From: Melastoma dodecandrum
Taxonomy: Eukaryota > Streptophyta > Magnoliopsida > Myrtales > Melastomataceae
Length of the DNA: 64,000 nt
Assembly: GCA_029817715.1 (NCBI GenBank)
Contig: JARUPY010000214.1
Coordinates: 62,001 to 126,000 of the forward strand
Reading direction: 5' to 3'
The position numbers and the translations under genes were made by a program. The notes beneath the pieces were generated by a model. It ran no database searches, was not told where the DNA came from, and was given only the letters and a program-made list of their open reading frames with translations. Of the stretch, positions 13,864 through 64,000 are shown piece by piece. The stretch's first letter is position 1, and each line of letters opens with the position of its first letter.

Positions 13864-13944
13864 TTTCTGTTGTTGAAACTTAAATCAACAAGGAGTTGTT
13901 CGTAGTTCAAATGTTGACAGAGTATCTGTAAATGAATCTGATAT

Positions 13945-14130: not shown

Positions 14131-14205
14131 TGGCACAAGTTTACATCAAACCGAGTACAAGTTCTACGGTCTATTTCATACAAACTAAAGTTAACCAATT
14201 CCCAG

Positions 14206-16996: not shown

Positions 16997-17214
16997 TACC
17001 TACCAGCAACTTCGACCACGTAACCTCACTATCGGAGACACTCGGGGACTGATGACAAAGTCGATCAGTCGGACTGATGAGGAACAGGAGGTCGAGGGAG
17101 TGGGGTAGAACAGGAGATATGGGACTGATGAAGGATTGGATATCGGGTGGGGGAAGCGGAGGACGTCGGGCGTGGGGGAAAATGAGGAGGCCGGGTTTGG
17201 GGACAGAGATGGGG

Positions 17215-31960: not shown

Positions 31961-31965
31961 TATTG

Positions 31966-32145
31966 TATTACGGAATGTTTATACCTTATCTACGATTACC
32001 TTATTTACGAATATTTCCTTCTAGATTTTAGGTAATAGAATAGGAAACATGTATCATATTGATTATCTCTTCTCTTGTACAAATACTGGCATGCCTATCA
32101 ATGAAAGAATAGACTTGAATTTAGCCACATTATACAGTTTCTATA
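31966..32145 (+). repeat. 5' LTR of Copia element 2
   Basis: 180 bp, starts TATTACGGAATGTTTATACC, ends TTTCTATA. Matches 36611-36791 with few differences. Confidence 0.9.
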
Positions 32146-32157
32146 TGGTATCAGAGC
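32146..32157 (+). promoter_or_regulatory. Primer-binding site (initiator tRNA-Met)
   Basis: TGGTATCAGAGC, the standard plant Copia primer-binding sequence, immediately after the 5' LTR. Confidence 0.92.
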
Positions 32158-32194
32158 GTTCTGATTCTCGCCGGTGATACGATCGTCAGTTTCT

Positions 32195-35100
32195 ATGGCA
32201 AAGAACGACGACGTGCCAGTAGCTTATACACTGCTTTCTTCCGACGGCCCGGGAACGCAACTCACTTCTTGCTTGCTCGGTGATGGCAACTACCTCACCT
32301 GGTCGAGGGCGATGCTCACGGCCCTCCGAGCGAAAAACAAAGTTGGGTTCATCAACGGTGATATGAAAAAGCCGGAGAAGACCAACCCACTCTTCGACAG
32401 ATGGGATCAATGCAAATCGATGCTAGTTGCCTGGATCTTCATTCATCTTGAACGAGATGTACAACGCACTGTTGCTTGTGCGGGCGATGCGAAGGATCTC
32501 TGGGATCTGCCGTGGAAACGTTTTTCACAGTGTAACATCACAGAAATTCATCAGATCTAGGCAAAAATTTGTCTTATTCGACAGGCCGGAACCACAGCTC
32601 GGGAATACTTCTCTGAGTTGACGAGGCTGTGGGACGAATTAGAAATGCTCCAGGAGCCACCAACCTGCACCTGCGGAAGCGCTGCTGCTCTAGCAACTCG
32701 TTGGGAAAACGAGAAATTACATCAATTCTTGATCGGACTCGATCCAGAGTACTCGGGCATCCGCTCAACCATCCTCGACAGTGACCCTCTTCTCACTGTT
32801 GGTCAGGCGTATTCAAAGGTCTCGCACGTTGAATCGCAGCGACGCGCGACCAGGAGACCAACTCTAGTGGAGAGAGACTTGGCTTTGTGGCCAAGGTTGA
32901 TAGAATTCCCGGCAATGCGAGGACGGGAATACAGGAGCAGTGCGATTACTGTGGGCGGCCTGGACATCACCGCGGGACCTGCTACGGACCTGCTACGGAC
33001 ATCTCTGCTGATCTCATCGTCGCAGTCATGGCAGGAGCAGCACAGCCGAAACCCTTCTGTAAACAGATCTGTTCTGCAGCAAAGGGAAGGAGGAGGTGAA
33101 CAGGTTTTCCATGGGCCAGGCCAGCAGAGGCAGACCCAATCTAATTGGCGTGCAGGTGGACCAGGCCTGGCGCGCAACTTTAGCCCAGCACGTCCACAGC
33201 AGCGCAGACAGACGTACGACCCGAACCAGCAACGGTCCAACAGTGGGCCTAATAGATCTCCTGCCCAGTTTGCTCATGCAGCCCAAGTCAGCGAACTTAC
33301 CAACCGTATCGCTAACCTGACCCCGGTTCAGGTTGATCATTTCTTGGGTATGATCCAATTTTCTGATCGTGATCTCGAACGGCTATCCGGTAAGGATCTC
33401 GTGCCCATTAATTGCGATTTTGAATGGATCATCGATTCTGGCGTATCGTGGCATATGACCGGCACTATGGCATCATTATCTCATGCTCGTATTGTGACTG
33501 ACGGTCCTTTAATTCATGTTCCAAATGGGACAACGCGACCTACCTCAACCGGGACCGTCAATCTTGGTGGCATGTTTCAACTACGGGATACCTTATTTGT
33601 TCCGGATTTTGGGTGCAATCTTATATCTGTTGATCGATTGTTGAGGACTATGGATATACTGTTCACTATATTGACAAATTATGTCTTATTCAGGACCCTT
33701 CCTTGGGGAAGACGATCGGATTGGGTGAACGTCGTGGGGGAGTCTGGTATCTACAGGTGGCTCCTGTGCTGCGTGCACTTCGGGCTGCGAAGACTAGTGA
33801 AGAAGAATGTGGCACAGGCGTTTGGGTCACCCATCACAGAAAATCAAGTTTCAAAATAATGAAGTTCCAATTATGCATTCCACTATTGATTCTTGTGAGG
33901 TTTGTCTTCGTGCAAAACAAACTCGTTCCGCTTTTCCTTTAAGTGACAATAAAGCTGATTTCCCTTTTCAATTAGTCCACTGTGACATTTGGGGACCATA
34001 TAAAGTTTCTTCCATTTCGGGTGTTCGTTATTTTCTCACTCTAGTTGATGACTTCAGTCGTTGTGTTTGGACTTACCTTTTGCGTGACAAATCGGAAGCA
34101 CAACATTTTCTTCTTGGTTTCTGTCACATGGTCCAAAATCAATTTGATCAGTCTGTTAAAACCATTCGCAGTGACAATGGACAAGAATTTATGTCTCATT
34201 CCGTCCAAAACTATTTCTTCCAAAATGGAATCATTCATGAGACATCTTGTGTTGACACGCCTCAACAAAATGGGCGAGTTGAGCGCAAGCATAGACATAT
34301 TCTCGAAGTCGCGCGTGCTTTGTTGTTCCAAGCTTCCCTACCTTTAGAATTTTGGGGGGAGAGTGTTTCCACTGCAACACACTTGATTAATCATACACCG
34401 TCTTTGGTTCTTTCCGGGAAAACACCATTTGAAATTTTGTTTGAAAAAGCCCCCTCCTATAGTCATATTCGGGTCTTTGGGAGTCTTTGCTTTGCACATC
34501 GCAAGTCTAGAGTCAAGGATAAGTTTGCTCCATGTTCCCGTCGCTGTATTTTTCTTCGGTATCCATTTGGGAAGAAGGGTTGGAGAGTCTATGATCTAGA
34601 GACTTGTGAAGTTTTGGTATCGCGGGATGTTCGTTTTTGCGAACATATCTTCCCTTTTGCTGATAATCGACCTTCTGCTGAGGAATATAGTGACTTCGGC
34701 TCTCTTCCGAGTCAGGGGGAGTTTTTGTCCCACGGGTCTGACCGAATATTCCTTGAGAGCCCCATAATAGTCTCGACTCAAGCAAAGATTACCCGTATAG
34801 CTTCCAGGACCGAACAGATTGAAGACTCAGTCGAGCCAGATACATTGCCTACAGCACTGACTCCACGTCCGACTCGTACGCGTAATCCACCGGTGCGATT
34901 CAACGACTACGTCTCTCACACTGCATATATAACCGACGCAGCACCCCCCCACTCAGCTTACCCAATCCGTCGCATTCCTCAGGTACGTCCCATCCCATTG
35001 AGAGCTTTCTGGCTTATTCTGATATTGACAGTGCACATGCCGCTTTCTTGGATGCTATTGATACGGACGATGAGCCCAGGACATATCGGGAAGCTTATGC

Positions 35101-36595
35101 ACATACTCATTGGCGGACTGCCATGGCTGATGAGATTCGCGCCCTTGAAGATAATCAGACTTGGACCCTTGAGCCCCTTCCTCCCGGGAAGAAGGCAATT
35201 GCCTGCAAGTGGGTCTACAAAGTCAAGCGACGCGCAGATGGCAGCATTGAGAGGTACAAGGCTCGACTGGTGGCAAATGGTTTTACGCAGATTGAGGGCG
35301 TTGATTTCCATTAGACTTTTGCCCCAGTCGCCAAATTAGTTACTGTCCGGTGTCTTCTGACGGTCGCACTTGCTCACAATTGGGAGATGCATCAGCTTGA
35401 CGTCAACAATGCTTTTCTCCATGGAGATCTTGATGAGGAGGTGTACATGCAGCTTCCACAGGGATTTCGAATTGCTGATTCTGGACGTGTCTGTCGCCTA
35501 CACAAAGCCCTATACGGGCTCCGTCAGGCTTCACGTCAATGGTATTCTAAGTTTGCTGCAACACTGACATCTTATGGTTTCCTCCAGTCGCAGGCGGATC
35601 ACTCCCTATTCACCTTCAAACAAGGTGACGATTTTCTCGCCATCCGTGTTTAAGTTGATGACATGATCCTCGTCGGCAATTCTCCAGGTCGCATATCTAG
35701 CTTCAAGTCTTATCTTGATCAACACTTCCGCATTAAGGATTTAGGTTCTCTTTCATATTTCTTGGGCATCGAGGTCTCGCGGGGCGACTCAGGACTTTTT
35801 CTCTGTCAACGGAAGTATACGCTTGATATTCTCTCAGAATGTGGCATGCTTGGAGCGCGTCCTATCACTTTCCCTATAGAGCAACAACATCATCTTTCCC
35901 CAGACTCCGCCGCTCCTCTCTCGGACCCTGGACAATATCGCCGCCTCATTGGCCGCCTACTTTATCTTACCATCCTAGACCGGATTTGAGTTACTCTATT
36001 CACATCTTGTCACAGTTTCTCCAGGACCCGCGTCAAGACCACTAGGATGCAGCTCTTCGCATCCTCCGTTATCTGAAGCAGTCTCCTGGACAAGGGATAT
36101 TTCTTCGGCCGACATCTTTATCTCTAGTGGCATATTGTGATGCCGATTGGGCCTCTTGTCCTACTACACGACGGTCTCTCACGGGATATTTCATTATTCT
36201 CGGCGGATTTCCCATATCCTGGAGGACGAAGAAGCAGACCACAGTTGCCCGTTCTTCGGCTGAGGCTGAATATCGTTCCATGGCCGCCACTGTCAGCGAA
36301 CTTCTCTGGCTCCGTAGCCTCCTTGATTCTCTTGGCATAACCACTACTGGTTCCATGACGTTATTCTGTGACAACCAGGCAGCACTACACATTGCCTCCA
36401 ATCCGGTGTTCCATGAGCGGACTAAGCACATCGAGATTGATTGTCACTTTCTTCGACAGTATAGTACATCGGGCCTCATTTCCACATGACATGTTTCCAC
36501 TCAGTTCCAGTTAGCTGATATCTTTACCAAGGCTCTTGGTCGAGATCGATTTCAGTTCCTATTGGCCAAGTTGGGAATTCGTAGTCTTCATTCTC
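32195..36595 (+). pseudogene. Copia gag-pol polyprotein with stops
   Basis: Starts at ATG 32195 (MAKNDDVP). Gag runs to a premature TAG at 32558 and continues in frame; a CCHC knuckle (CDYCGRPGHHRGTC) lies in a shifted frame near 32940. The protease motif is IIDSGVSWHMT (33427), with Val in place of the usual Ala. The integrase zinc HH-CC (MWHRRLGH; SCEVCLRAK) and D-D-E core (HCDIWG, RSDNG, NGRVERKH) span about 33807-34680. RT (CKWVYKVK ... [12 protein letters not shown]) follows, with stops at 35312 and 35651; the latter replaces Tyr of YVDDM. RNase H (CDADWASCPTTRRS, SSAEAEYRS, ADIFTKALG) ends near 36595. At least four stops and two or more frameshifts in all. Confidence 0.9.
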
Positions 36596-36600
36596 CAACT

Positions 36601-36610
36601 CGAGGGGGAG
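36601..36610 (+). promoter_or_regulatory. Polypurine tract of Copia element 2
   Basis: CGAGGGGGAG directly before the 3' LTR; primes plus-strand DNA synthesis in this class. Confidence 0.85.
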
Positions 36611-36791
36611 TATTACGGAATGTTTATACCTTATCTACGATTACCTTATCTACGAATATTTCCTTCTCGATTTTAGGTAATAGAATAGGAAACATGTATC
36701 ATATTGATTCTCTCTTCTCTTGTACAAATACTGGCATGTCTATCAATGAAAGAATAAACTAGAATTCAGCCACATTATACAGTTTTCTACA
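36611..36791 (+). repeat. 3' LTR of Copia element 2
   Basis: 181 bp, ends TTCTACA followed by the TATTG target duplication. Confidence 0.9.
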
Positions 36792-45539: not shown

Positions 45540-46364
45540 TGTTAGGAAAACTTTTTCACGTCTTCAAATCCAAACGACGAGAGCGAACACGATCTAGACA
45601 AATTAATGTTAGCAAAGATCTTCACCACGCAAGTGCACTCTCTTTAAGGAATTATTCAACCCCACTATGAAGTTGCAGCCGGGGAAGTGGCACGAATATC
45701 CCTCTAGGAGTTATGAAGATCACTAACACGTCGATTCTGCAAAACCGAGTGCTCCAACAAGAGATTTCAAAAGGAAAATGGTGTTTAAGACTAAGATTAT
45801 ATGTTTTTCCCCAAGTATTATGTCTTATATAGATATGTAGATATTATGAGCAAACATGTCATTTCACGGAAATTAATGCCTAAACAAGAGAACATGTTTC
45901 TTCCTGAAGCAACTCCTTAAAAACAGAGAGTCATATTTGTTCGCCAAAGGTGCGAACTTCAAATACCAAGGGTTGTGTTCCATCAATGATAATCATTCTC
46001 AAATCCCAATAGTTATCTTTGGTTGTTTCGTATGAACATACACAATCATTCAAACAACACTTCATTCATTCAACAATATGATCTACACAAACCATTTTAT
46101 TATCAATGTATTTGTTAGTCGGTGTGGCCACACTGAAATCTTGTGTGGTGTGAACAACTGACGCCCTAGTATGGCCACACTGAAATCTGGTGTGGCCATA
46201 CCAATGTTTCTGCGAATGATACATACCATCGTGTAGCCACACGGAAGTCTAATGTGGTCACATCGATCCTTCTGTTCACATATGCATCCTCGGTGTGGCC
46301 ACATTGAAATCTGGTGTGGCCACACCAACCATTATGTACATCATTGGTATTAAAATGTCCAACA
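45540..46364 (-). repeat. 3' LTR of Copia element 3 with GTGGCCACAC repeats
   Basis: 825 bp. Region 46120-46330 holds four irregular units (47-64 bp apart) built on GTGGCCACACTGAAATCTGG. Confidence 0.88.
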
Positions 46365-46713
46365 ATCCCCCACTTAGATCACGATGTTGAGAACAACATC
46401 TAAACTTGACAACACTCCACATACAAGTTGGTATCATTTTAGATTAAACCACCAATCAGTGCAACAAAATTGACACTACCTTGAATGTTCATATAGGCAC
46501 GGTCCCTTTCTTCTTGCCTCCATTGTAATAGGCAACGAAATTGAACCTTGTGAAGAGTATCTACTCATCCTCTTTGACAATAGTATTCACTATAATCCGG
46601 AATGGAAATGACCCAAGCGGTCAGTCTAGTGTTTCTGGTCATGTATCGATAACTTGTTATTACCTATTAAACCTCTAGGATAGTGGTATAACTGAGTAGA
46701 GGTTAGGTTCCCG

Positions 46714-48308
46714 TCATCGGTGACTCAATATTGGTTTTAACCCCATTCCTTGAGAAGTCGAATCAACAAGGTCTCGACTTAGACCATTTGTCAACGGATC
46801 CGCTAGATTTTTACACGACTTCACGTATGTGATGGTTATTACACCATCATCCAATAGTTGCCTCACATACGAGTGTCCCAAACTGATGTGTCTAGATTTC
46901 CCATTGTAAATTTTACTCATTGCTCTAGACATAGTCGCTTCATTATCACAGTACACAGAGATGGCCGAAACCGGTTGTGGCCACAACACTATTTCTGATA
47001 ACAAATTCCTCAGCCACTCCAACTCTTCGCCCGTAGAAGCCAAGGTAACAAACGCCGACTCTATTGTGGATTAGGTTATACAACTTTATTTCTTTGACGC
47101 CCAAGAAACCGCACCACCTCCTAGTGTAAACACGTAACCAGAGGTTGACTTATCGACGCATATGCTAGTAATCCAACTAGCATCCAAGTATCCCTCTAAA
47201 ATCACTGGATATCCTTCATAATGTAATCCCATGTCCTTTATCGTCTTGAGATATCCAAATACTCTCCCTATTGTCATCCAATGTGAGGCTCCGGGATTAC
47301 TCGTATATCTTGATAGTTTGCATACCACAAATGCTATATCCAGTCTCGTACAATGCATAGCATACATTAGACTTCCAATTGCACTTGCATAATCTAATTG
47401 TTCAATGGCCCGACCGGAATCCCTTTTGAGTTTAACCGAGGCATCATAAGGACCGTTCGCTTCCTTAAAATTTAGATAACTAAACTTAGAGATGATTTTG
47501 TCAATATAGTGGGCTTGACTAAGAGAATAATCCCCATTAATTTTGCAAACTTTGATTTCAAGAATCGTATTAACCTCATTCAAATCTTTCATTTTGAAAC
47601 TCGAAGTAAGATACCTTTTGGTCACTTCTATGTCCTTCATATTAGTCCCGACGATCAACATATTGTCGACATAAAGACATATAATCACTCCATATTCATC
47701 CGTGAACTTTGAGTAAATACACTTATCCGCATCATTGTGCGTAAAACCATTACTCAATACCACACTATAAAACTTTTCATGCCATTGTTTCGGTGCTTGC
47801 TTTAAGCCATATAAAGACTTAACAAGTCGGCAAACTTCTTTTTATTTCCGAAGAGTACGAACCCTTCGGGTTGTTCCATATACACCTCTTCCTCTAAATC
47901 TCCATTTAGGAAAGCCGTCTTAACATCTATTTGATGGACATGTAACTTATAAATTGATGCAAGTGCTAATAACACTCTAATAAATATCATCCGCGTAACC
48001 AGAGCATATGTGTCGAAATAATCGACACCCTCCTTTTGTTTGAAACCTTTCGCGACCAATTTTGCCTTAAAGGTTTGTATTGACCCGTCGACATTGTATT
48101 TTTTCTTAAATACCCATTTGTCCCCTATTGCTTTCAATGATGAGTTACCCGATGTCACTTCCAAATCAAGCACGTAAGCAATTTTCAGGGCTGTAAAAAC
48201 GAACATCATCTTGTCCTTCCATCGCATGTAATTGGTGGCGTCGAATCGGTCTAGTTTGGTACAGTCGGAATGCAACATTTTCAATGTCGTCTCGGAGTAT
48301 GAAGCCAC
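46714..48308 (-). pseudogene. Gag-RT fusion remnant and RNase H of Copia element 3
   Basis: A frame starts MASYSETTLKMLHSDCTKL and DATNYMRWKDKM, the beginning of a Copia Gag. It passes after ~60 residues directly into reverse transcriptase (GDKWVFKKKYNVDGSI, QIDVKTAFLNGDLEEEVYMEQPEGF) at 48308-47802. RT continues in a new frame at 47763-47086 (LYVDNMLIVG, with Asn for the second catalytic Asp), followed by RNase H (EELEWLRNLL, YCDNEATMSRA) at 47043-46714. Protease, the knuckle and the whole integrase are gone, so a deletion fused Gag to RT. Confidence 0.85.
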
Positions 48309-48324
48309 AATAATTCCTTAAAAC

Positions 48325-49186
48325 TGTTGCGAAAACTTCTTCACGAACCGATGGGAAAGCTTTAAATCCGAACGATGAGAGAACACGCGATCTAGACATC
48401 AATGTTAGCAAGGACCTTCACCGCGCAAGTGCATTCTTTTTAAGGAATTATTCGCCCCCATTATGAAGTTGCAGCCGGGGAAGTAGCACGAATATCCCTC
48501 CAAGAGTAATGAAGATCACTAACACGTGATTCTGCAAAATCGAGTGTTCCAACAAGAAATCTAAAAAGGAAGATGATGTTTAGATATTTTTGAAGCAAAA
48601 TTATATAATTTATCCACAAGTGTTATGTTTTAAATAGATATGGAGACATTAGGATGGGGCATGCCATTTCACGAAGATTCATGTCTAAACAAGATAACAT
48701 GTTTCTTCATGAAGCAACTCCTTGAAAAACAAAGAGTCATAGTTGTTCGCCAAAGGGTGCGAATATCAAACATCAAGGGTTGTGTTCCCTCAATGATAAC
48801 CATCCCCAATTCCCAATAGTTATCTTTGGTTGTTTCGTATGACATACACAACTATTCAAACAACACTTCATTCATTTAACAATGTGATATACACAAACCA
48901 TTTCTATTGTCAATGTGTTTGTTAGTCAAAGTGGCCACACTGAAATCTTGTGTGGCCATACCAATGTTTCTGTGAACAACTGACGCCCTAGTATGGCCAC
49001 ACTGAAATCTGGTGTGCCCATACCAATGTTTCTGTGAACGATACATACCATCGTGTGGCCACACAGAAGTCTGGTGTGGCCACATCAATCCTTCTTTTCA
49101 CAAGTGACTCCTCGGTGTGACCACAATGAAATCTGGTGTGGCCACACCGACCATTATGTTTACCATTGACATTAAAATGTCCAACA
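48325..49186 (-). repeat. 5' LTR of Copia element 3
   Basis: 862 bp, homologous to 45540-46364. Contains the same GTGGCCACAC-based repeat family at about 48925-49152. More diverged from its partner than the LTRs of Copia element 2. Confidence 0.88.
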
Positions 49187-50613: not shown

Positions 50614-50647
50614 TTTAGGGTTTAGGGTTTAGGGTTCATGGTTCAAA
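50614..50647 (+). repeat. Telomere-type repeat block 1
   Basis: Three perfect TTTAGGG units, then degenerate TTCATGG and TTCAAA, directly followed by ten T of element A. Confidence 0.9.
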
Positions 50648-51894
50648 TTTTTTTTTTGGTCAATTAATAAATTCATTAAAAGAAAAAGAATAGCCTTGGC
50701 TGTTACAGAAGCACAACACCATCCGGAAGAGAATACCCACGCACGGTAGATACCTAAGCTCCACACATGAGCACAAGAAAGGGAAACCCACGTAGGCGTA
50801 CAACATCTGAGCTCCACACATGAGCACAAGAAAAGAAAATCCACGCAGGGGTACAACATCTATGCTCCACATAGGAGCACAAGAGAGACCCACGCAGGAG
50901 TACAGACCTAAACCCACGCAGGGGTACCAAAAATCCACTACAACAGCAAACAAAAACAAATAACCTGCCCACAGGCTTATTGGATCCACGAGTGACTCAG
51001 TTCCATAACACCGCATCAGACCACCTCCGAAATAGGTAGATGTCAACCATGGGCAGCCCATCAATAGGAACAACACCAGAAGCAGCTATGCCAGGAGCAA
51101 AGTCCCATCCCGCCAGCTCCCACTCCATCCAAATTCCAACCAGCCAACACTCCCCTTTCATTCCAGAGTGTGTTCTGCATGCTCCCAGCCATCCTAGAAG
51201 CCTGCCAGGGGCCCTTTCCCCCTGCCCTCATCGGACCGGGACACTACACGCAGTACACGCTCCTAGCAAGGCCAAGATATGAGGGGCCCTCCCATGCCTC
51301 GACAAAGAGAAAGGACAATGGGAGGTTTTCGGCAGAATAGGACGGTAGAGGGAACCAGCCGGTGACGTCGTAGACGGAGGAACAGACGCCGACAGGTGGC
51401 GCAAACCCTTCCGCCACGTCACCCTCATGCTGACGTGGCGGTGCTGACTGGGATAACTCTGCTAATGTGGCGGCACATGGTAGCAGACGTGGCAAGGGAG
51501 GTGGCAGCTGACGTGGCACATGGAACTAGGATTTCTGTACAGACATAACGGAAACCAAGCCGCCGCTTTGCAAGACCCACCGTCGGTGCTTCAACCTATC
51601 ACTGCAGAGCCATTAGGGTCACGCAGCAAGTCGCTGGAGAGCACACGAGACGAGGACCGCCAGGAGCCACGCGTATCCCCGTCCGAAGTCGGACAGAGAC
51701 GCAAGCTGAACCCAGATCAGAAACGCGGGTCCTCGGAAGCGACATCAACGGCAACCCACTAAGTATTGGAAACGTGCCAGTCAGACCGAGGCGGTAACCA
51801 TTCCGCCATAGTCCTCCTCCAGCAGGCATGGCGGCGCTTACAACGGAACCGTCGGTCCTTGGCGACCAATTGGGAGAAGCTTCAAAGAACCGCC
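50648..51894 (-). mobile_element. Retroposon A (non-autonomous, 1.25 kb)
   Basis: T10 (poly-A on the minus strand) followed by GGTCAATTAATAAATTCATT. No reverse transcriptase. It carries a ~53-bp tandem repeat at 50735-50935 (AGCTCCACACATGAGCACAAG, ~3 copies) and, in 51400-51510, several GACGTGGC/GCCACGTC motifs. Open frames are unremarkable and I recognise no protein. Its 5' end merges into AGGGTTTAGGG at 51895. Confidence 0.65.
50735..50935. repeat. ~53-bp tandem repeat in retroposon A
   Basis: Three full and one partial copies with (C)CCACGCAGGGGTAC and GCTCCACA(C/T)A(T/G)GAGCACAAGA cores. Confidence 0.85.
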
Positions 51895-51905
51895 AGGGTT
51901 TAGGG
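51895..51905 (+). repeat. Telomere-type repeat block 2
   Basis: Only AGGGTTTAGGG, directly followed by eleven T of element B. Confidence 0.75.
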
Positions 51906-54767
51906 TTTTTTTTTTTGTTAAGGTAAATTTCATTGAGGGCTCAAATTAATTACAAGGGACCTCAGGGGAACCTAGTCCACTGTGAGTTAGCTCTAACCTA
52001 TAGACTAAACCCTACGGGGTGTCACCCCAACCTAACACCATGTCAAAAAAGGAGTATTGGGCCCGCTTGAATCAGGTCCATTCTAGCCTTAAATCAGGCG
52101 CCATTATGTATTATCTACCAACCACAGCGCCCAGGCCCCGAGCAAAAAGCATCGGCCCTGAAGCATTTCTATCCACTATCCTGGGCCCAAAATAAAGGAA
52201 TTGGCCCGCACGAAAAAAGACAATGCAGGCTAGCAAAGGAGCTAGCAACCTGTCAAAGCGTTTGCAGGTAAGATAGTTATATACAAACTAAATTAAACCG
52301 ATTTCATCGGGCTTTTCCCAGCCGATCTTCCCACTGGTCTGCGCCGCTATACAGTGGGCTTCATCAGCAAGTTGCTCTTGTCCCTATGTTCAGACGAGTC
52401 ATTCTCCGGCATCCATTCCTTGGTGCTTGTTTCAGCTTCATCATTGTCCTGAGAGCTCGATACCGATTAACCGGGCACTCATCCTCCATAGCTGGTGCCT
52501 TGCTGCTGCTGCCGGGAAGGCATTGACAGAATTCGATGTCGCTCCAAAATGCAGGGTCACTCCAATCATCAGCGGTCACACCAGTGAGGTCATCAGCGTC
52601 CAGACCCTCTTCCCCCTACTCATTGAGGCCTCTCCATCTGGGTTTTGCTCATCAATTTTCCCCCTTCCTTCTCCTCGCCACTGGCCGTATTTCCTTCCTG
52701 TTGACTGCACCCCTTCCTCCCTACGCTGCTCAGCCATCCTCAACTGCAATGCCTGTTTTATTGCGTCGATACCAGCAATTTTTTCACACATTGTTCGCCG
52801 TAGCTTGTCGGTAAGGAATAACTATCCTGGGCAAGGAGCTTCAAGCTTGTAGCGATCCAGAGCAGATTGACAGCCCGAGATGTCAATGCGTTGAAGAATT
52901 TCCTCTATTAGTTCTTGCAACTTAACTTCGGCCTCCTCCTCCGCTAACTGTTGCCGCTCCGTCTGGGTTGCTACTTCCCTGGTGGCTACTGGTGCTCCTC
53001 TGGCCTGGTGGAGGAGATCCTCATCCAGCATGAATCTCACCCTCCACTCCGGCTTCTTCTTCTTGGGTTGCTGGCTTGTACCTCCAGGAGCTGGTGCGAC
53101 GTAGTCCGGCTGCCAAAGGGGGGAATCCTCCCTGTTGAATTGCACTTGCTGGTAATCCACTTCGGGGAGGGAGTCCGCCCTATTAAAGTGCGCTTGCCGG
53201 TAACAATCTTCCATAGGGATTGGCCCTGTACAGTCGAACATCAGGGGGGTAAAATCTTCTCTATTGAAATGCACTTGCAGCCAATTGGGCTTGAGGAATT
53301 CTTTATTTGCTTCTGTTAGTGCCCTAAGCGGCCTTCGCCTCAGTCTTGCTTGCTTCCTATCTGGCGGCTTAGGCCTTGGGCAGTACCGTCCACGATATTC
53401 GTCTTCCAGCATGGCACGCCATTCTTTCTGTGCCATACCCCGAGCCTTGGGATCATCGAGATCAAACTTGTCCTTAGCAAGCGCACTGTTGAAAGAATAA
53501 AGAAAAATCGCTTACGGCCCATACTTCACCTCTGCCAGCGGCCACCACACCTCGTTCAATTTCCCAAGCTTCATTCCGACATTTCTAAGCTCCTCCATGT
53601 TACCTTCAGCCGCAGCTTCACCAATTTGCGTGTAATGCAATAGTATCATCTTGAAGAGTTTCTCCTCCCCATCACTATCCATTTCCAAATCCTCCCATCT
53701 AAGATAGTTATCCGTGACATCCGCCTCGTCCGGACCCTTAAGCCGACCACCCCCTTCGCCCCAGCTACGGACGCGTTCAATACCTCCCTTCCTATACATG
53801 GCTCCCCATCTCCATTTCCCTCCAATGCCATGATTAGAGTTATCAGATTCCGCTTCACCAAAAGCATAACCTGCATACTCATCTAACTTAGCAAATTTTT
53901 CGGCAGCCTTCGGATCCTCATCCATTGACAGTAGTGACGAGCCCGCAAAGAGTCATAATCAGTGGTCAGCGAGTCGACCCTAATCCACTATCGTAATGGG
54001 TCCCTAGGCAAAATCTCCTCCTGAGGCACTTCCTTCACATCCAACATGGGTCCTTTCCCTTTACCGTCCGACAGTAAACATGACCGGTGCTATTGCCATC
54101 CTTCGAATCATCCAAGATTACCTGAATGATAGGATCCGCACCGGGCTAGCGAATCCTTTGCTGTTCCCCATCTGATCCTTGAGTTGCGCCCCAACGTGCT
54201 GCTTGCCTCCTTGTGGTTACCGTGCTCACTCCCTTCACCGGAGTACCTTGCCTTGGCGGGTTATCACGCGCTTCACTTGGCTTGGTTACCGGAGCCAAAG
54301 CCCTAGGGCAATGTTTAACGGGGTTTCACCCTTTTCGGACCCTGATCCAAGGTCCTCCAATTTTCCGTCCGCTATTACTTGCTATGAGGGCCATTACTTG
54401 CAATAACGGCCCTAGCCGGCCCTAACTGTATTGGCCATCCTCTGCTTCGGGCATTGGGCCCTATAGGTTTATTTGGCGTTCTTTCTGACCAAGCCCGCAC
54501 CCTTCTTCTCTGTAAATCCCGCCTTCAACTTTGCTAGGTCACAAGGCCCAGGGTTCTTCCCTTGAACCCTAACCCTAAGCCTAGAGTTCTTCGCATGAAC
54601 CCTAACCCTATACCAGGCATCTAACCCCCTCATGCTTGGGTGGATTACCACAAATTTCTACTTAAGGCCCTAGACGGTGGTTGTCGGCTTTCCTCCTCTA
54701 CGGGTTTTGTGCATGGCAACTTTGCTTCCTGGTCGGGCTCGGACCACGCCTCTTACCAAATCCTGTC
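51906..54767 (-). mobile_element. Retroposon B (2.9 kb) with one long unknown ORF
   Basis: T11 then GTTAAGGTAAATTTCATTGAG, the same 3' terminus as element E. It contains one decayed protein-coding region (52370-53925) homologous to the one in E and no RT or endonuclease. About 700 bp lie upstream of the ORF. That part includes two 33-bp-spaced copies of GAACCCTAACCCTA (54565 and 54598), i.e. telomere-like sequence in the opposite orientation. The 5' end meets AGGGTTTAGGG at 54768. Confidence 0.7.
52370..53925 (-). pseudogene. Unknown ORF of retroposon B
   Basis: One reading frame from MDEDPKAAEK (53925) to about 52822, with a TAA after VKYGP (near 53512), and further recognisable C-terminal sequence to ~52370 after another stop. 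Visible features: RWEDLEMDSDGEEKLFKMI and EVWWPLAEVKYGP, LYSFNSALAKDKF, YCPRPKPPDRKQ, three spaced copies of (V/A)HFNR(E/A)D-like motif, a lysine-rich stretch, then ATQTERQQLAEEEAEVKLQEL, probably coiled coil. The element E copy shares all of these, so this is a real protein family of roughly 500 residues. I do not recognise it; a structural (Gag- or capsid-like) protein is possible but unproven. Confidence 0.65.
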
Positions 54768-54791
54768 AGGGTTTAGGGTTTGGGGTTAGGG
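54768..54791 (+). repeat. Telomere-type repeat block 3
   Basis: AGGG, TTTAGGG, TTTGGGG, TTAGGG, directly followed by nine T of LINE C. Confidence 0.88.
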
Positions 54792-56624
54792 TTTTTTTTT
54801 GATAAATAATAATTCATTACCCATAAAAAAGTCTGTACAAGAACCACAGGGGCATACCCCTGGAAATCAAGCTGTCACGAAAGTAACATATACCCTATAT
54901 ACGTACCTAAGACAAATAAAATCAATCTATGTACGTGGCAGTGACACAAGAATAAATGTAGCCAGTGTCCGAGGAGGCAACAAACGCTGACCTACGCGAC
55001 GCTTATTGCGTTCCATCCACACGTAATAAATGCACCCAGCAAACATCCGAATGAAGGGTCGACGATGTCGTAGGGTAGCTCCAGCCGGTGTGACTAGCAG
55101 ATTAATAATAACACTGAATCTACGCGGAAAATTCGGCGCCACAAGTCGACCAAGAGTGTACTACCATACTTCCGCTGGGTATGAACATGTGAAGAAGAGG
55201 TGGTCGAATCACTCTCTTCTCAATCCACATAGAGCACAAGTTGAAGAAGAAGAAATACCAAGAGAAAAGAGCATATCCGAAGTGTATAGCCTTCTCTGAA
55301 CGGCCAACCGGAGAACAAAAGAGAACCATGGCAACAGAGCCTTAGACCAGACAAAACTAGCCCAAGGAACAGTCTCATACTCGCTGCAAATATACCTCCA
55401 TGCAGAAGCAATAGTGAAAACACCATCGGACCAGACAACCTTATCAGGTATACCTGGTGATGGGTAACATGTAATTAGCAGGAGCTCATATAGCCTGTCA
55501 AAACACACACGCCTATGCCGATGAATCCACATATCACTGTCATCAACAAAACTCCGCCAGCTCGGATCCAAAAATAAATCCGCCACAGAAACAGTATAAG
55601 GAATCCCTGACCGCTCGATCTCCTCATGTCCAAAGAGCTCCACCAAAGGGCCCAATGGAGATCAAGAATCATACCAGAAGGAAATCCTACTCCCATCACC
55701 CATACGCCACGAGATAAGTCGGCGGACAAGGTGCCTCAACGCCAATAATCGTCTCCAAATCCAAGAACACCTATCCGGCTGCCTCACCTGCCAGAACGAC
55801 TTGCCTCTCAGAAGATACGTCCTCACCCAACGAGCCCATACGGAGTCCTCTGGATCCGAGAAGAGGTGCCAAATGTGCATCAACATCGCCGCTCGGTTCC
55901 ACTCTGTAACCCGCTTAAGACCCAGCCCCCCTGCGCTTTCGGCTTGCATACGGTACTCCACTCTACCTTGGCCTTGTGGTGCTCCATCGATGGACCCGAC
56001 CACAAAAACCTCGACATGAGCTGCTCCAACCGCCTGCAAACCGACATCGGCAGTGGAAATACAGACGACCAATATGTCTGAGTCGCAAATAACACCGAGT
56101 TCACTAACTGCAGCCTCCCAGCATACGACAGATGTCTACTAGTCCAATGACAAATCCTACTAGCAATGGCATCCACCAACGGCGTGCAATCCTCTGAAAA
56201 TAGCCTCCTAGTAATAAGAGGCACTCCAAGATAGCGAACCGGAAGCTCCCCTCGGCCAAATTCAGAAGCAGCCAAAATCTGCGTCTGCACCTCCTCCGAG
56301 ACTCCACCAAAGAAAATCTCGCTCTTCTGTGCACTCATTCTCAAGCCAGACTGATCCCCAAATCTCAACAATGTGTCTAAGACACAACGTACCGACGACA
56401 GCTTTCCACTAAAGAATATGAGCAGATCATCCACAAAACACAAATGAGACAACTGTACCTTCCGATATCGGGAATAAAAACCAAAATTCGGTGACTCTGT
56501 GGCCTTCCTCAACATGGTAGAAAGTACCTCCATAACCATCATAAACAAATATGGTGACAACGGACAGCCCTGACGAATTCCCCTGGAACTGCTGAAAAAG
56601 CCCTGCAGCTCCCCATTGATACTA
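54792..56624 (-). mobile_element. LINE C (L1-type, 5'-truncated)
   Basis: T9 then GATAAATAATAATTCATTACCC, the same 3' end as LINE D and about 90% similar to it by eye. The 5' end is cut inside the RT domain at the sequence for NGELQGFFSSSRG and passes directly into TTTAGGG repeats at 56625. 1.8 kb remain of a >5-kb element. Confidence 0.88.
55209..56580 (-). pseudogene. Partial LINE ORF2 (RT C-terminal half and zf-RVT), LINE C
   Basis: RT from CPLSPYLFMMVMEVLS through LCFVDDLLIF, with Val where LINE D has Ala in the F(A)DD catalytic motif, and RYLGVPLITRRL to SRFLWSGPS. A frame change at a G6 run (55926-55931) follows, then GGLGLKRVTEWNRAAML and the zinc-binding reverse-transcriptase domain (FVLRLAVQRRLYTSDM, STCALCGLRRE). 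A second small indel lies near KVVWSDGVF (55436), where LINE D has three more residues. Not functional. Confidence 0.88.
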
Positions 56625-56781
56625 AGGGTTTAGGGTTTAGGGTTTAGGGTCCGGGTTCCGGGTTCAGGGGTTCGGGGTTCCGGTGTCCGGGTTCCGGGTT
56701 TAGGGTTCAGGGTTCTGGGTTCTGGGTTCTGGGGTCAGGGTTTAGGGTTTAGGGTTTAGGGTTTAGGTTTAGGGGTTAGGG
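56625..56781 (+). repeat. Telomere-type repeat block 4 (157 bp, with variant repeats)
   Basis: Perfect TTTAGGG units at both edges enclose variants TTCAGGG, TTCGGGG, TTCCGGG, TTCTGGG and GTCCGGG. Such variants are typical of the inner part of a telomere. Directly followed by seven T of LINE D. Confidence 0.92.
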
Positions 56782-57054
56782 TTTTTTTGATAAGTAATAA
56801 TTCATAACCCATAATGTAGTCTATACAAAAACCACAGGGGCATACCCCTGGAGATCAAGCTATCACGAAACTAACGTATACCCCCTATACGTACCTAAAA
56901 CAGACAAATCAATTTATGTACGTGGCGTTGACGCAAGAATAAATGTAGCCAGTGTCCTGGGAGGCAACATATGCTTGCCTATGCGACGCTTATTACGTTC
57001 CATCCACACATAATAAACACATCCTGCAAACATCCGAATGAAGGGCCGACGATG

Positions 57055-60000
57055 TCATAGGGTAGCTCCAACTGGTGTGACTAGCTGATTCATAATAGCG
57101 CTGAATCTACGTGGAAAATTCGGCGCCACAGGTCGACCAAGAGTGTACTGCCATACCTCCGTTGAGTATGAGCATGTGAAAAATAGGTGGTCGAATCTCT
57201 CTCTTCTCAATCCACATAAAGCACAAGTCGAAGAAGAAGAAATACCCAGAGAAAAGAGCATATCCGAAGTGTATAGTCTTCTCTGAACGGCTAGCCACAG
57301 AACAAAGGAGAACCGTGATATCGTAGCCTTAGACCAGACAAAGCTAGCCCAAGGAACAGTCTCATATTCGCTGTAAATATATTTCCATGCAGAAGCAATA
57401 GTGAAAACACCATTGGACCGTAAGGACCAAACAACCTTATCAGGTATACCTGGTGATGGGTAACATGTAACCGGAAGGAGCTCATATAGTCTGTCAAAGC
57501 ACGCACGCCTATGCCGATGAATCCTCATATGACCGTCATCAACAGAACTCCACCAGCTCGGATCCAAAAAGAAATCTGCCACAGAAACCGTATAAGGAAT
57601 CCCTGATCGCTCGATCTCCTCACGTTCAAAGATGGCCACCAAAGGACCCAATGGTGACCAAGAATCGTACCAGAAGGAAATCCTACTCCCATCACCCATA
57701 CGCCACGAAATAAGTCGGCGGACAAGGTGCCTCAACGTCAATAATCGTCTCCAAATCCAAGAACACCCATCCGGCGGTCTCATATGCCAGAACGACTTGC
57801 CTCTCAGAAGATATGTTCTCACCCAACGGGCCCACACGGAGTTCTCCGGGTCCGAGAAGAGGTGCCAAATGTGCTTCAACATCGCCACTCGGTTCCACTC
57901 TGTAACCCGTTTCAGGCCCAGCCCCCCTGCGCTTTCGGCCTGCATACAGTACTCCACTCTACCTTGGCTTTGTGGTGGTCCATCGATGGACCCGACCACA
58001 AAAACCTCGATATGAGCTGCTCCAATCGCCTGCAAACCGACATCGGTATTGGAAATACAGACGACCAATATGTCTGAGTCGCAAATAACACCGAGAGCAT
58101 ACGACAGATGTCTACTTGTCCAATGACAAATCCTACTAGCAATGGCATCTACCAACGGCGTGCAGTCCTCTGAAGATAGCCTCCTAGTAATAAGAGGCAC
58201 ACCCATATAGCGAACCGGAAGTTCCTATCGGACAAATCCAGAAGCAGCCAAAATTTGCGTCTGCACCTCCTCCGGAACTCCACCAAAGAAAATCTCACTC
58301 TTCTGTGCATTCATTCTCAAGCCAGATTGATCCCCAAATCTCAACAATGTGTCCAATACACAACGTACGGACGACAGCTTTCCACTATAAAATATGAGCA
58401 GATCATCCGCAAAACACAAATGAGATAGCCGTACCTTCCGACATCGGGAATGAAAGCCAAAATCCGATGACTCTGTGGCCTTCCTCAATATGGCAGAAAG
58501 TACCTCCATGACCATCACAAATAAATATGGCGACAAAGGACACCCATGACGAATTCCCCTGGAACTACTGAAAAAGCCTTGCAGCTCACCATTGATACTA
58601 ATGGAGAATCTGGCCGTGGTAACGCACTCCATGACGAGCTGGATGAATGAATGTGGAAATCCAAAGCACTCCAATACCACCTGCAGAAATTCCCACTCGA
58701 CCGAGTTGTATGCCTTCCTTATATCAATCTTCAAAGCACAACTTGGAGGACTCCTCTCTGTATGGTAGCCCCTAATCAACTCGTGTGCTACCATGATATT
58801 ATCTACTATCCGTCGTCCAGGTATAAACGCCGATTGCTCCGAACAGATGATCCCAGGAAGCACCTCCTTGACTCGCGTCGCCAGTATACGAGTGATGCAT
58901 TTATATATGGTGTTACAACACAAAATAGGCCTATAATCCGTCAATGCCATCGGGTTCGCCTTTTTCGGAATGAGCGATATGATAGTGGTATTCGCCTCGC
59001 GAAGAAGGCGACCACGAGCAAAAAAGTCCTCCACGGCCTCAGTGACCAGCCCTCCCACAACCTCCCAAGAGCCCTTGAAGAATTCTGCCGTGTATCCATC
59101 AGGACCAGGTGCCTTATGGCGTCCTAGCTGAAACATCACTGTGCGCACCTCTTCCGCCGAAACCGGAGCCACCAAACCACCAATTTGGTCTGACGATATA
59201 GTCCCAGATATAACTGTCCTCACCATATCCCGATTAATCTATACCTCACGCGGTGCTGCTGTAAATAAGGAGCTGAAATACCGGATCGTCTCATCCCTCA
59301 CCTCCGACAGATCAGATAACACCACTCCATCATCTCTCATCAGTGACATAATCGCGTTCCTATTGTGACGCCACTTCAGCATGCTGAAAAAATAAGCCGT
59401 GTTCCGATCCCCGAGCTGTAGCTAGCGAACACGGGCCTTCTGGCGTAACATGCTTTCCTTCAGCCTAGCCATATAATTAAATCTGATTGCGGCAGCCCGC
59501 TCTACAAGGGATACCTCACCATGCGAACCCTGGGCTAACAACTCAGACTGAACCTCCTCGAGATGTGATCTCGCCTCGCCAACCCGCATTGATAACTCAC
59601 CTAGTTCATCCCGATTCAGCTTCTTCAATTTCGCTTTAAGCGTGACAAGCCTCCTGTATAGCATGTACATAGGCCGCCCATCATACCTCTCTGACCACGC
59701 CTGTCGAACGAATGCCTCATAATGTGGGTGTTCCATCCAGAAGTCAAAGAACTTGAACGGAACACGACGCCCCTGTGATCTCTGCATAAACCATACTATG
59801 CACGGGGAATGATCCAAGCAACTAGGAGCCAAAAATCGAGCCACTGAATCAGAGAAGTCTCTCAACCACCGCATGTTCACCATCACCCTATCCAACTTTC
59901 GGAGTATAGCATCTTCTCTACGATTCGTCCATGTAAAGAACTCTCCAGTAGACCGCAGATCCTCTAACTCCGCATCTCTAACAGCAACATCGAACTCCTC

Positions 60001-60492
60001 ATCCTCACCATGCCAACTCAAATCACCACCCTGCCTTTCAAATGGTGTCTGAACAACATTCATATCCCCAATTACACACCAAGGCTTCCCAGCACATCGA
60101 GCTGAAGCATCTCGCAGGAACCGCCAGAGATAACGTCGCTCTCTGGCTACATTAAAGCCGTACACAAACGTAATTTGACAAGAGATACCAGTCTCAACAA
60201 AAGTAATCGTAGCATGCACCCACTGAGGATTCATATCAACCACGGTCAGCTGTACACGAGCTAGATCCCAACATACCCATATCCTCCCAGTCATAGAGGC
60301 ACCATGGGAAACAACATATCGCCAAGACGATAGAAAAGAACTCTGACCCCGTAATTCAACTGAAGCCTGCACTATAGTCTCCAACAGAGCAAACAAGGAT
60401 AACCTATGAATGGAAATGAGCCTGCGTACCTCGCTGACATGTAAGGGGTCATTGAAGCCGCGCACATTCCAAGCTCCGAACATAGGCACCAT
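57055..60492 (-). pseudogene. LINE ORF2: AP-like endonuclease, reverse transcriptase, zf-RVT (LINE D)
   Basis: Starts MVPMFGAWNVRGFNDP (60492). APE-type endonuclease (GAWNVRG, FALLET, VIGDMNVV, FTWTNRR, LDRVMVN, CLDHSP) covers the first ~250 residues. RT follows with HKAPGPDGYTAEFF, IDIRKAYNSVEWEF, RGIRHGCPLSPYLF and LCFADDLLIF, so the catalytic FADD is intact. It ends with a zinc-binding region (SLGISSSSTCALCGLRRERF, HLFFTC). Defects: in-frame stops near 59422, 59227 and 58225, a ~20-bp deletion near 58095 relative to LINE C, and the G6 frame change (57922-57927) shared with LINE C. Catalytic residues of both enzymes are otherwise present. Confidence 0.9.
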
Positions 60493-60507
60493 AAGAAACA
60501 GAATAAA

Positions 60508-61947
60508 TCATCTAGAAGTCCCGCCGGACTTCCCCCGCGGCACCTGTGACGGCGCCTGCTGAACCAACTTATCCTGCCTTCCTTTCTTCTTCTCTTTCTT
60601 CGTCAACTTCGCCAAAGGACGAGATTCAGCATCGGCAGTATCATCTCCATAGGCTCGCATGTCCTCATAGAAGTCAGAGCTCAAGGACTTCTCCTTATTC
60701 AGAGCACAACTTCCCAAGTAGTCAGACGTTTCTGCCTGTAAGGCAGGCCTCTTTCCCTTGTCAGATGGCGACTCAACAGCACAAATCGGGCCATCTATAT
60801 ACTCATCCTCCCCGGGTATAACATCATCCATGTCCCTCTGTCCCTCATACAACACAAATGCCAATTTAGGATCACCCCCCTCCCAGTCATGGGCGGGATC
60901 CTCAATCACATCAACCGCATAATTAATCAACTCTCCGAGGGGAACATCATGTCGTGTCTCTTCCTCCTCATGAATAACCTGCAGGACCTGAAAGGCATTC
61001 ACTGAATTCACATCCATCTACGGTACATCCGGAGGAACTACCGTAGCGTTCTCAGCACGCTCTTTCTCTACATTAGTCCTCTGTGCATGGGCCCTCCTAG
61101 GTCTCTTCTCCCCATACCTGACAGTACGATTAGCCGCCTCCGGGTTCTGCGGACAACGCTCAAAAGTATGACCAAATACACAACAAGACTGACAACGCGG
61201 AGGTCGAAACTCATACTCAAGCTGAATCTCCTTGCATTGTCCCTCCGTATCAGTAATCGTCACAGACTGACGCAGTTCCAACGAGGCATCAAACTCAATC
61301 TGTACTCTCGCACTTCTCACACTGCCACGTGAAAATGACCTAGCATCAATGAGCAAAGGAGTTCCCAGGCTGCTCGCAATGTACTGCACTCTATTCCAGT
61401 GAAAGAACTCAGCAGGGATACTCTTCATCTTTAGCCCTAAAGGCAACATCTTCGGCTCGAAAGCCTCTACAGAGGTACCAAGCGTCCAGCGTCGGAGCAC
61501 CAACGGAATACCAACGACATGCCAATCACTCCTCTCCAAGATAGCATCAAAAGACTCATCAGAATGAAATCTCATCAGAAACATACCAGGCCCAACTCCA
61601 CAGACATCCGCAAGGCCTTGTTTACCCCAGAGAAGTCGAGCAGTCCTGCTGATAACATCATTGGGAAAACGGCGACCAATGACATATCCGACCAAAGTGT
61701 TCTTCCACAAACGCTTGCCCTCCTCAACAATCTCTGAAGGCATAATTAGAGTCCCACCCGAGCCAAAAGCGACATCAACTCGCTTGACTTCCAGACGGGA
61801 AGACCGAAAAGTGTCTGCAAAGGATCTGGAAGGCAAAACACGATCAAAACCCGCAATATCTGACGCTTGAAGTACCCCAAAAGAAGGCCCCGGAGCATAG
61901 GAAGTCTGCAGAAAAGTCGCCGGAAAACTGGTCGGAAAAGTTGCCGG
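60508..61947 (-). pseudogene. LINE ORF1: DUF4283/CCHC nucleic-acid-binding protein (LINE D)
   Basis: DUF4283-type region (NTLVGYVIGRRFP, MFLMRFHSDESFDAIL, WHVVGIPLVLRRW, FHWNRVQYIASSLG) followed by a CCHC knuckle (CQSCCVFGHTFERC, near 61170) and a basic/acidic C-terminal part ending KKGRQDKLVQQ. One in-frame TAG at about 61018 divides it. The ORF ends 16 bp before ORF2 starts. Typical of plant L1-type ORF1, which coats the RNA. Confidence 0.85.
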
Positions 61948-62005
61948 TTTAGGGTTTAGGGGGTTCGGGGTTCGGGGTTTAGGGTTTAGGTTTAGGGTTT
62001 AAGGG
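61948..62005 (+). repeat. Telomere-type repeat block 5
   Basis: TTTAGGG units with variants GTTCGGG, TTCGGGG, TTTAGG and TTTAAGGG, directly followed by nine T of element E. Confidence 0.9.
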
Positions 62006-64000
62006 TTTTTTTTTGTTAAGGTAAATTTCATTGAGGCTGAGAAAATTAGTTACATGTACGTAATGGCTGTCTACCAGCCAAGCGGGTAACTAACCTAGGT
62101 TTCAGACTAAATCTGTTCAAAAAGAAAAACCCCTAACGGACTCTCATAACGGTACCTATTCTGCATTCCATCAGGCTATTCCTAATAAACCGGGCCATTC
62201 CTAATAAAACCCAGAGCAGTGGCCCACGGCCCGCTCGAATCTCAAAAATACCTAAGGACCCAGAAGGAAAAACCTGTCCAAACATTTGCAGGTATAAAAA
62301 ATTATGTACATTGCGTTCAGCTATCGCGACCTCTTCCTGCCCGCCGAGCTGCAGATCTGTTGGGATCCAGTGGGAGCTTCATGAGTAGATTATTCCAATC
62401 CTTGAAATCAGCTGAATCTGCCTCCGGAATTCACTCATCAGAGCTGGTATTCGAGGTACCCAGCTCCTCCTCGTCCTCCGGATCTGGATCCTGCGTTCCC
62501 TTGCTACAGCTGGCCTTCTCCTCAGTTGTTACCGTGCCGCAGTTGAATAGGCTCTCATAAGACTCCAGGTCCTTCCAGAAATCGGAGTCCTCCCAATCAT
62601 CAATCTTCTTGTCTTCAGTGCAAGGGGCCTTTTTTCTCTGCCGTTTTCCCACTTCTTGCTAGTGTTCAGGTACCAAATCTCGTTCCTCCCTATCAGCCTC
62701 CTTTCCCTTCCCCTTAGCTTCACGAGAAGCCATCCTGGTCAATAGGAGCTCCTTGGTTCGTTCCATTCGGGCCATCTTCGCAGGCATAGAGTCCTGCAGC
62801 TTGTCCACCAAGAATAACCAGCTAGGGGAGAGGGCCTCGAGCTCTAGGCTGTCCCAATCCGACTGGTAACCTCTGTTGTCAATGCATTGTAGGCTCTCCT
62901 GGATGAGCTCCCATAGCTTCTCTTCCGCCTCCTCCTCAGCCAGGTGGATACGGTCCGTTTGCATGGCCGCTTCATTGGAGGTGGTCGGCACATGTTCAGG
63001 CTCCTCCTCCGGGAGAGTGAACCTTACTTTCCTCGCAGATTTAGGCTTGTCCTGCCTATAGTTAGAGCTGCCAGGCATAGTCTGATGGGGCAGGTCCTCT
63101 TTCTGCACAGGGGAAGATTGCGGAGATTTCTCATACGATGGGGAATCCTTCCTGTTAAAGAATACCTGCAGGGTATTGGGTCGGAGAAACTCGCGATTCT
63201 CTGCTGCCAGCTTGCCTAGTGTCCTACACCTCAGCCTTTCTTATTTCCGATCCAGTGGTTTCGGCCGCGGTAGGTACCTTCCGAGACGTTCATCCTCTAT
63301 CATTACCGACCATTCTTTTCTAGCTTTAGGAAGGTTCTCCAAATTAAAAGTGTCCTTTGCTAAGGCCCTATTGAATGAGTATAGGAAGACCATCTGCGGA
63401 CCATACTTGATTCTCGATAAGGGCCACCACAGCTCATTTATCACTCCAATACTCCTCCTGGCGTTGCAAAACTCCTTGATGTTGCCTCTGGCCAAAGTAT
63501 CTCCAATTCGTGTATAAAGTAGGACAATCAACTTTAAAAACTTCCCCTCGCCATCATCGTCCATCTGGAGGTCCTCCCAGCGGTTGTAGTTCCCAATTTC
63601 ATCCCACTCCTCCGGCCCTTTAGGCCGTTCTCCTCCATGTCTCCAGCTTATCACACGTTCCACCCCACCCTTTCTATACATACCCCCCACCTTAAGTCCC
63701 TTCTAAGGCCATGACCGGAACTCGCAGAGTCCGCCTCACCAAACACAGGGCAAATGTAGTTATTCTCATTTTCAATTGCGGCCTTCTGCGCCCCAAGTGG
63801 ATCCTCATTCATGGAGAATTCTGACCAGCCCGCGAACCACTTCGAATCAACTGACTTAGTTGCAGCCCTGAAAGCAGGCCATGCGTTCTGCTGCTGCAAA
63901 CTTCCTAATCGATGCCCATCTAGCACAGATAGATCAGGGCGCCCACCAGACAGTTGAAATGGCCTTCTCCACTGACTACCAGGGGTTCCGGAGGTTACTT
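62006..64000 (-). mobile_element. Retroposon E (same family as B), runs off the window
   Basis: T9 then GTTAAGGTAAATTTCATTGAG, identical to the terminus of element B. It encodes a diverged copy of the same unknown protein. The 5' end lies beyond 64000. Confidence 0.75.
62431..63926 (-). pseudogene. Unknown ORF of retroposon E (homologue of the ORF in B)
   Basis: Minus-strand pieces: MNEDPLGAQKAAIENENNY (63926-63700); MYRKGGVERVISW, RWEDLQMDDDGEGKFLKLI, ELWWPLSRIKYGP, FLYSFNRALAKDTF and RYLPRPKPLDRK (63690-63241); then KVRFTLPEEEPEHV, AAMQTDRIHLAEEEAEEKLWEL and a Met/Arg-rich helix (63108-62659); and an acidic C-terminus (WEDSDFWKDLESYESLF, EDEEELG) to 62431. Stops or frameshifts separate the pieces. 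Unlike B, the KYGP-to-LYSF junction is open here, which shows the two ORF parts belong together. Confidence 0.65.

Follow-up and report, generated by a model that had tools for sequence, protein, structure and literature searches.

A 64,000-nucleotide stretch of the Melastoma dodecandrum genome (contig JARUPY010000214.1, positions 62,001 to 126,000; hereafter the window) was found to carry, from position 50,614 to its end, five poly(A) retroposons (E1–E5) arranged head to tail in a single orientation, with tracts of TTTAGGG-type telomere repeats (t1–t5) between them. We tentatively interpret this arrangement as a flowering plant's array of telomeric retroposons, whose members may have arisen by reverse transcription primed at G-strand 3' ends of the telomere repeats, mostly at nicks inside them, and then been subject to breakage and healing. 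The observations come from a single locus in this one 64-kb window, of which positions 1-50600 served as the background for comparison. The tracts and elements are, in order:

50614..50647, plus strand: tract t1, made up of three perfect TTTAGGG units and, next to E1, 13 degenerate bases (50635-50647)
50648..51894, minus strand: E1, poly(A) retroposon in which no coding sequence was recognised; 10 Ts at 50648-50657, antisense element after them
51895..51905, plus strand: tract t2, AGGGTTTAGGG, 11 bp
51906..54767, minus strand: E2, poly(A) retroposon with an open reading frame (ORF) not of reverse transcriptase (RT) type, same family as E5; 11 Ts at 51906-51916, antisense element after them
54768..54791, plus strand: tract t3, 24 bp
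54792..56625, minus strand: E3, 5'-truncated long interspersed nuclear element (LINE) of L1 type; 9 Ts at 54792-54800, antisense element after them
56626..56781, plus strand: tract t4, about 156 bp, variant units abundant (TTCNGGG type)
56782..61946, minus strand: E4, L1-type LINE, nearly full-length, 5' end within the ORF1 frame; 7 Ts at 56782-56788, antisense element after them
61947..62005, plus strand: tract t5, 59 bp, variant units present
62006..64000, minus strand: E5, the other member of E2's family, continuing past the window end; 9 Ts at 62006-62014, antisense element after them

The five T-runs, each of which opens an antisense element, bear out the claim of the initial annotation that five elements follow one another in uniform orientation. 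The array, with one or more in every tract, and positions 13205-13206 are the only places in the window where perfect 12-nt telomere seeds occur on the plus strand; the minus strand has such a seed at 44242 alone. Between 50614 and 62014 there are 17 copies of TTTAGGG and one of CCCTAAA, and the respective counts for 1-50613 are seven and three. Tracts t1, t4 and t5 are rich in variants, with 0.16, 0.17 and 0.13 edits per bp, respectively.

The association between repeats and poly(A) ends was assessed over all 39 T/A runs that reach a length of seven in the window (five in the array and 34 elsewhere). TTAGGG occurred in the 16 nt before 4/5 array runs, compared with 0/34 of the others (Fisher p 6e-5), and when the threshold was lowered to five Ts it preceded eight of 266 runs, four being array runs. 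Every poly(A) end had been described as fused directly to TTTAGGG, with TTTAGGG, seven to eleven Ts and an antisense element at each junction. The T-runs do measure 7 to 11 Ts and the poly(A) ends of E2–E5 directly abut TTTAGGG-type repeats, so that the description fits four of the five junctions but fails at E1, where degenerate bases intervene. It had also been proposed that the 5' ends pass straight back into TTTAGGG; those of E1–E4, all four that are visible, do run directly into TTTAGGG-type repeats, but that of E5 lies beyond the window.

At three of the four 5' junctions the repeats resume in the AGGG register (chance of at least three of four in one register 0.07, by hand calculation), an outcome that a TTT^AGGG nick would allow. 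The register of the 3' junctions was dropped as a deciding criterion, as primers ending GGG, GGGT, GGGTT and GGGTTT all give GGG-T(n); four of the seven primer phases thus lead to this junction, and its occurrence in 4/4 cases has a chance of 0.11 (hand arithmetic). Target duplications, of which the longest exact candidates are 15 bp for E2, 7 for E3, 9 for E4 and TTT only for E1, were likewise set aside as a means of deciding between nick and terminus because matches come cheaply in perfect repeats. A separate observation is that GGGGTTAGGG is present at 54782 and 56772 and nowhere else in the window, in each case immediately ahead of a poly(T), once that of E3 and once that of E4, which belong to one family; this pair may be due to chance or may be the remnant of a templated tail.

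The element side of the junctions was found to hold a common motif. AWTTCAT lies within 30 nt of the poly(T) in 5/5 array runs and in 0/34 other T/A runs, and this shared 3'-end sequence suggests one common machinery for all five elements, with E1 and E2/E5 probably borrowing the enzyme of the E3/E4 lineage. In green plants, cases have been described in which L1-clade LINEs and their non-autonomous partners have conserved 3' ends in common (PMC3747384, in the part drawn on here). No clear common fold emerged when the last 105 nt of the five elements were examined (z -1.5, -0.1, -0.2, -0.7 and -2.0). Searches of positions 1-50600 gave neither further copies with E1, E2, E4 and E5 as DNA queries nor coding traces with E4 ORF1, E4 ORF2 and the E2 ORF as queries.

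The likely source of the enzyme is the E3/E4 family, a plant L1-type LINE with RT, APE endonuclease, zf-RVT, a DUF4283 ORF1 and a poly(A) tail. Pfam matches above the cut-off were PF00078, PF03372, PF13966 and PF14111 in E4 and PF00078 in E3. The coding features of E4 are:

57055..60507, minus strand: ORF2, a single 1150-codon frame interrupted by three TAG
about 59866-60474, minus strand: APE endonuclease (Exo_endo_phos), within ORF2
about 58285-58971, minus strand: RT, within ORF2
about 57151-57405, minus strand: zf-RVT, within ORF2
60508..61946, minus strand: ORF1, with DUF4283 at about 61297-61653; interrupted by one stop and still open where it reaches the 5' junction

Because the ORF1 frame stays open to the 5' junction, E4 looks slightly 5'-truncated. 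What we take to be the catalytic motifs of APE endonucleases are present in E4, and its predicted endonuclease would allow nicking. When compared with solved chains, the E4 RT was nearest to LINE-1 ORF2p (E 1.5e-36, with the best R2 chain at 4.9e-17); no R1-type RT was among these matches, the comparison containing no R1-clade reference. Relatives of the E4 RT sought in viral_contigs and genome_contigs gave none that could be confirmed, and tblastn with the E4 ORF proteins matched only E3 and E4.

E3 is about 89% identical to E4 over 1844 aligned bases, and its homology to E4 stops where GGGTTTAGGG starts, which marks E3 as 5'-truncated. Differences between the two at codon positions 1, 2 and 3 number 39/513, 26/514 and 71/514 (7.6, 5.1 and 13.8%), those at positions 2 and 3 differing with p 2e-6, and the untranslated regions (UTR) differ at 34/273 positions (12.5%). 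Since equal rates at the three positions would be expected after duplication in place, this codon-position bias rules that origin out, and E3 and E4 are separate insertions that stem from a coding lineage.

The description of all the elements as LINE-type was narrowed to E3 and E4, whose coding sequence supports it, as no RT was found in E1, E2 or E5: none was present in the scanned ORFs, and E4 ORF2 had tblastn matches only in E3/E4, with E5 cut by the window end. 'No RT' thus refers to the visible part of E2/E5, and E2 may be truncated. The coding features of this family are:

52822..53952, minus strand: main open frame of E2, with one internal stop and more E5-homologous pieces downstream of it
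62659-63998, minus strand: ORF of E5, in pieces

The homologous protein pieces of E2 and E5 are 36-66% identical, and nucleotide identity is 66% in the longest block and 88% in the last 49 bases. In a block of 97 codons the differences at positions 1, 2 and 3 number 29, 20 and 55, and because they are concentrated on the third position the ORF is judged to have been under selection. E2 and E5 are diverged copies of one retroposon, and neither this pair nor E3/E4 is the product of copying in place. The scanned E2/E5 ORF pieces gave no Pfam domain above the cut-off, RT included, and the matches of one E5 piece to DUF7744 (E 0.0086, 16.6 bits against a cut-off of 27) and FAN1_TPR (E 0.072) were weak and below threshold. 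Relatives of one E5 piece sought in viral_contigs gave none confirmed, and the predicted fold of the E2/E5 ORF was unusable (mean pLDDT, the predicted local distance difference test score, 38.7). E1, of a third type, has no recognised ORF (Pfam gave no match for the two E1 ORFs scanned) and contains 53-bp tandem repeats at 50726-50884. In the 5' part of E2 (54546-54610) there is a duplicated 33-bp unit with CCCTAACCCTAA, in the orientation opposite to that of the array repeats.

From these features a possible course of events can be outlined. The L1-type LINE with its APE endonuclease (E3/E4) would supply the enzyme, and at least two types without recognised RT (E1 and E2/E5) would use it. To judge from the junctions, the TTT of GGGTTT could pair with the poly(A) tail and prime antisense complementary DNA (cDNA), the primer more often being a nick at TTT^AGGG within the repeats than the chromosome terminus. 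Synthesis may stop early, as is seen in the truncated E3 and is likely for E4. The far end of the cDNA lies next to TTTAGGG repeats and could have been joined to them by rejoining or by telomerase regrowth. Later breakage and telomerase healing could shorten the tracts and strip flanks, as at E1 and in MoTeR arrays, and repeated cycles would stack the elements with their 5' ends telomere-ward.

It had been proposed that the 3' end of the G-strand primes reverse transcription, and both the polarity and the junctions agree with this. The same applies to HeT-A, to TRAS1 and, as far as orientation goes, to MoTeR and FoTeR. Polarity is nevertheless uninformative as to whether the primer was a nick, as in TRAS-like insertion, or the terminus, as in HeT-A-type end extension, because the Ts that pair with poly(A) occur on the G-strand only. 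Nicks inside repeats (TRAS/MoTeR-like) are slightly favoured over the chromosome terminus (HeT-A-like), and nick priming was ranked above terminal addition because the tracts are short and variant-rich, like those of MoTeR arrays, and because of the flanks of E1. A number of points weigh against the favoured reading as a whole. The evidence is one locus, with the direction of the telomere read from the G-strand within the window. The T-run of E1 is parted from three perfect TTTAGGG units by its 13 degenerate bases, and its flanks are unlike each other, the left being degenerate and the right consisting of perfect repeats, which speaks for loss or healing of the 5' flank. The candidate target duplications vary in length from element to element (15, 7 and 9 bp, and none). 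The AWTTCAT motif was picked after the five ends had been seen, and these represent three families; aligned 3' ends between families gave scores that were matched by 25-58 of 2000 shuffles and are weakly unusual. The elements contain internal stops, and the E4 endonuclease piece had no match among solved structures at E 0.01.

Terminal addition, by which RNA would be reverse-transcribed on the G-overhang of a short telomere, telomerase would heal the cDNA end and the cycle would be repeated outward, is considered unlikely. It predicts the polarity and junctions equally well, and it would suit both E1, which has no target duplication and passes from a degenerate left flank to perfect repeats on the right, and the truncated end of E3, which passes at once into GGGTTTAGGG. 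However, tracts of 11 and 24 bp would imply attachment to nearly lost telomeres, the endonuclease encoded by E4 would be superfluous for end addition, and t1, t4 and t5 are variant-rich and not fresh canonical repeats. The age of the tracts is still not decisive here: substitutions in t4 (11.3%) do not exceed the neutral distance between E3 and E4 (12.5% in the UTR, 13.8% at third positions), so the ages of tract and element could not be separated. We regard as doubtful, too, the more ambitious proposal of a dedicated telomeric retrotransposon system in flowering plants, in which an L1-type LINE targets or extends TTTAGGG ends together with a HeT-A-like partner, E2/E5 (conserved protein, no RT), alongside telomerase-type repeats. 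Somewhat less probable again is incidental insertion, whereby ordinary L1s cutting T-rich sites would have hit, without targeting, a degenerate array of telomere repeats that was already there, whether terminal or interstitial, and the T-rich strand alone would account for the polarity. The G-strand offers TTT/A, which is similar to the site that L1s usually cut, E1 sits at a degenerate T-rich site, and interstitial telomere repeats are reported to be common in seed plants (PMC8621592, in the part drawn on). This would require five insertions from three families within less than 300 bp of repeats, yet no copy is found in the other 50.6 kb despite 34 T/A runs of at least 7.

Two further explanations are improbable to a much greater degree. 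That the stack was built mainly by recombination or break-induced copying between tracts, with few true insertions, is the least probable of all. Amplification of this kind has been reported for MoTeR arrays (PMC8381367 and PMC7367193, each as far as drawn on), and a 23-nt variant string is common to t4 and t5, as is GGGGTTAGGGTTT to t3 and t4; but a shared variant string of at least 22 nt also arose in 872/5000 unit shuffles, which is not significant, and E3/E4 and E2/E5 have diverged under coding constraint. Misjoining of fragments that hold telomere repeats is scarcely more probable: repeats are assembly hazards, but the poly(A) ends are clean and on a constant side, tracts of about 11-157 bp are easily spanned by one long read, and one polarity at five junctions is unexpected from random joins.

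Returning to priming at nicks within telomere repeats, the array can be compared with known telomeric elements. HeT-A primes at the chromosome terminus and is a partner element with a conserved ORF and no RT. HeT-A, TART and TAHRE of Drosophila resemble the array in their poly(A) end on the inner side and single polarity, and E2/E5 recall HeT-A. According to the portions of the literature used for these comparisons, Drosophila is devoid of telomerase repeats, its elements being joined without them, whereas TTTAGGG-type tracts part all neighbouring elements here. Zepp of the green alga Chlorella is an L1-clade LINE of the green lineage with poly(A) and 5'-truncated copies, reported from a telomeric region. 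It is described as nesting into its own copies, whereas the elements found here are parted by telomere repeats, in a land plant. Telomeric Penelope-like elements, among them those of Selaginella, likewise associate retroelements with the G-rich telomere ends of a land plant, but they belong to another superfamily, E4 having an L1-type RT and an APE endonuclease.

The array is close in architecture to MoTeR1 and MoTeR2 of Magnaporthe (Pyricularia) oryzae and the FoTeRs of Fusarium oxysporum. These form head-to-tail arrays with 5' ends toward the chromosome end, with short telomere tracts between elements, variant repeats and 5'-truncated copies, and the order, outward 5' ends and short tracts are the same here when direction is judged from the G-strand. 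Tracts in MoTeR arrays can be as short as half a repeat or exceed 20 repeats (PMC7367193), and the arrays are remodelled by breakage and healing. MoTeR2 is an RT-less partner with a common 3' end, as E1, E2 and E5 would be. MoTeRs and FoTeRs carry a restriction-like endonuclease, however, whereas in E4 an APE endonuclease (Exo_endo_phos) is combined with plant L1 domains and a poly(A) tail; the array behaves like MoTeR/TRAS systems but is not a MoTeR, as the endonuclease type differs. TRAS and SART of Bombyx mori are poly(A) LINEs inside telomere repeats, beside telomerase-type repeats, and the TRAS1 endonuclease nicks TT^AGG on the G-strand (PMC7265360), the strand and site implied by this array. 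The GGG-T(n) junction would be compatible with such a cut at 4/5 ends, although the T-run masks the cut site and the duplications are of inconstant length. TRAS and SART are R1-type elements; the E4 RT found its best matches in LINE-1 when compared with solved chains, none of them an R1-clade reference.

In the part consulted, a 2025 review states that no Drosophila-type telomeric retrotransposons have been found in plants so far, and names telomere-associated Penelope-like elements (Selaginella) and the subtelomeric Retand (PMC12477314); in a 2023 paper, as far as drawn on, the Viridiplantae example is Zepp of Chlorella (PMC10088271). Among the literature matches listed, judged by title and start of abstract, there was no angiosperm case, subscription papers and preprints falling outside the scope of the search. 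Genome-wide enrichment of these families at TTTAGGG junctions, if found, would establish a flowering-plant case of L1-type LINEs invading telomeres, and would make it possible to test whether plant chromosome ends are buffered or destabilised by arrays of this kind. An RT-less partner with a selected ORF would parallel HeT-A and MoTeR2.

The remainder of the window (1-50600) contains plant gene domains together with copia and MULE elements. Outside the array, 20 of 113 ORFs of at least 90 amino acids were scanned with Pfam, and the domains include NPH3, Neprosin and Alliinase_C. A copia-type element at 31965-36785 has integrase-region domains between 176-bp direct repeats (96% identical) that resemble long terminal repeats. 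At 45562-49186 a copia RT (RVT_2, 47089-47841) lies between 831-bp direct repeats that are 85% identical, the right one of which holds 62-bp tandem repeats. An unusual run of 41 Cs at 6708-6748 is possibly a sequencing or assembly fault. Pieces of a MULE transposase (DBD_Tnp_Mut, MULE, SWIM) occur at 13441-16999, with a GRF zinc finger close by.

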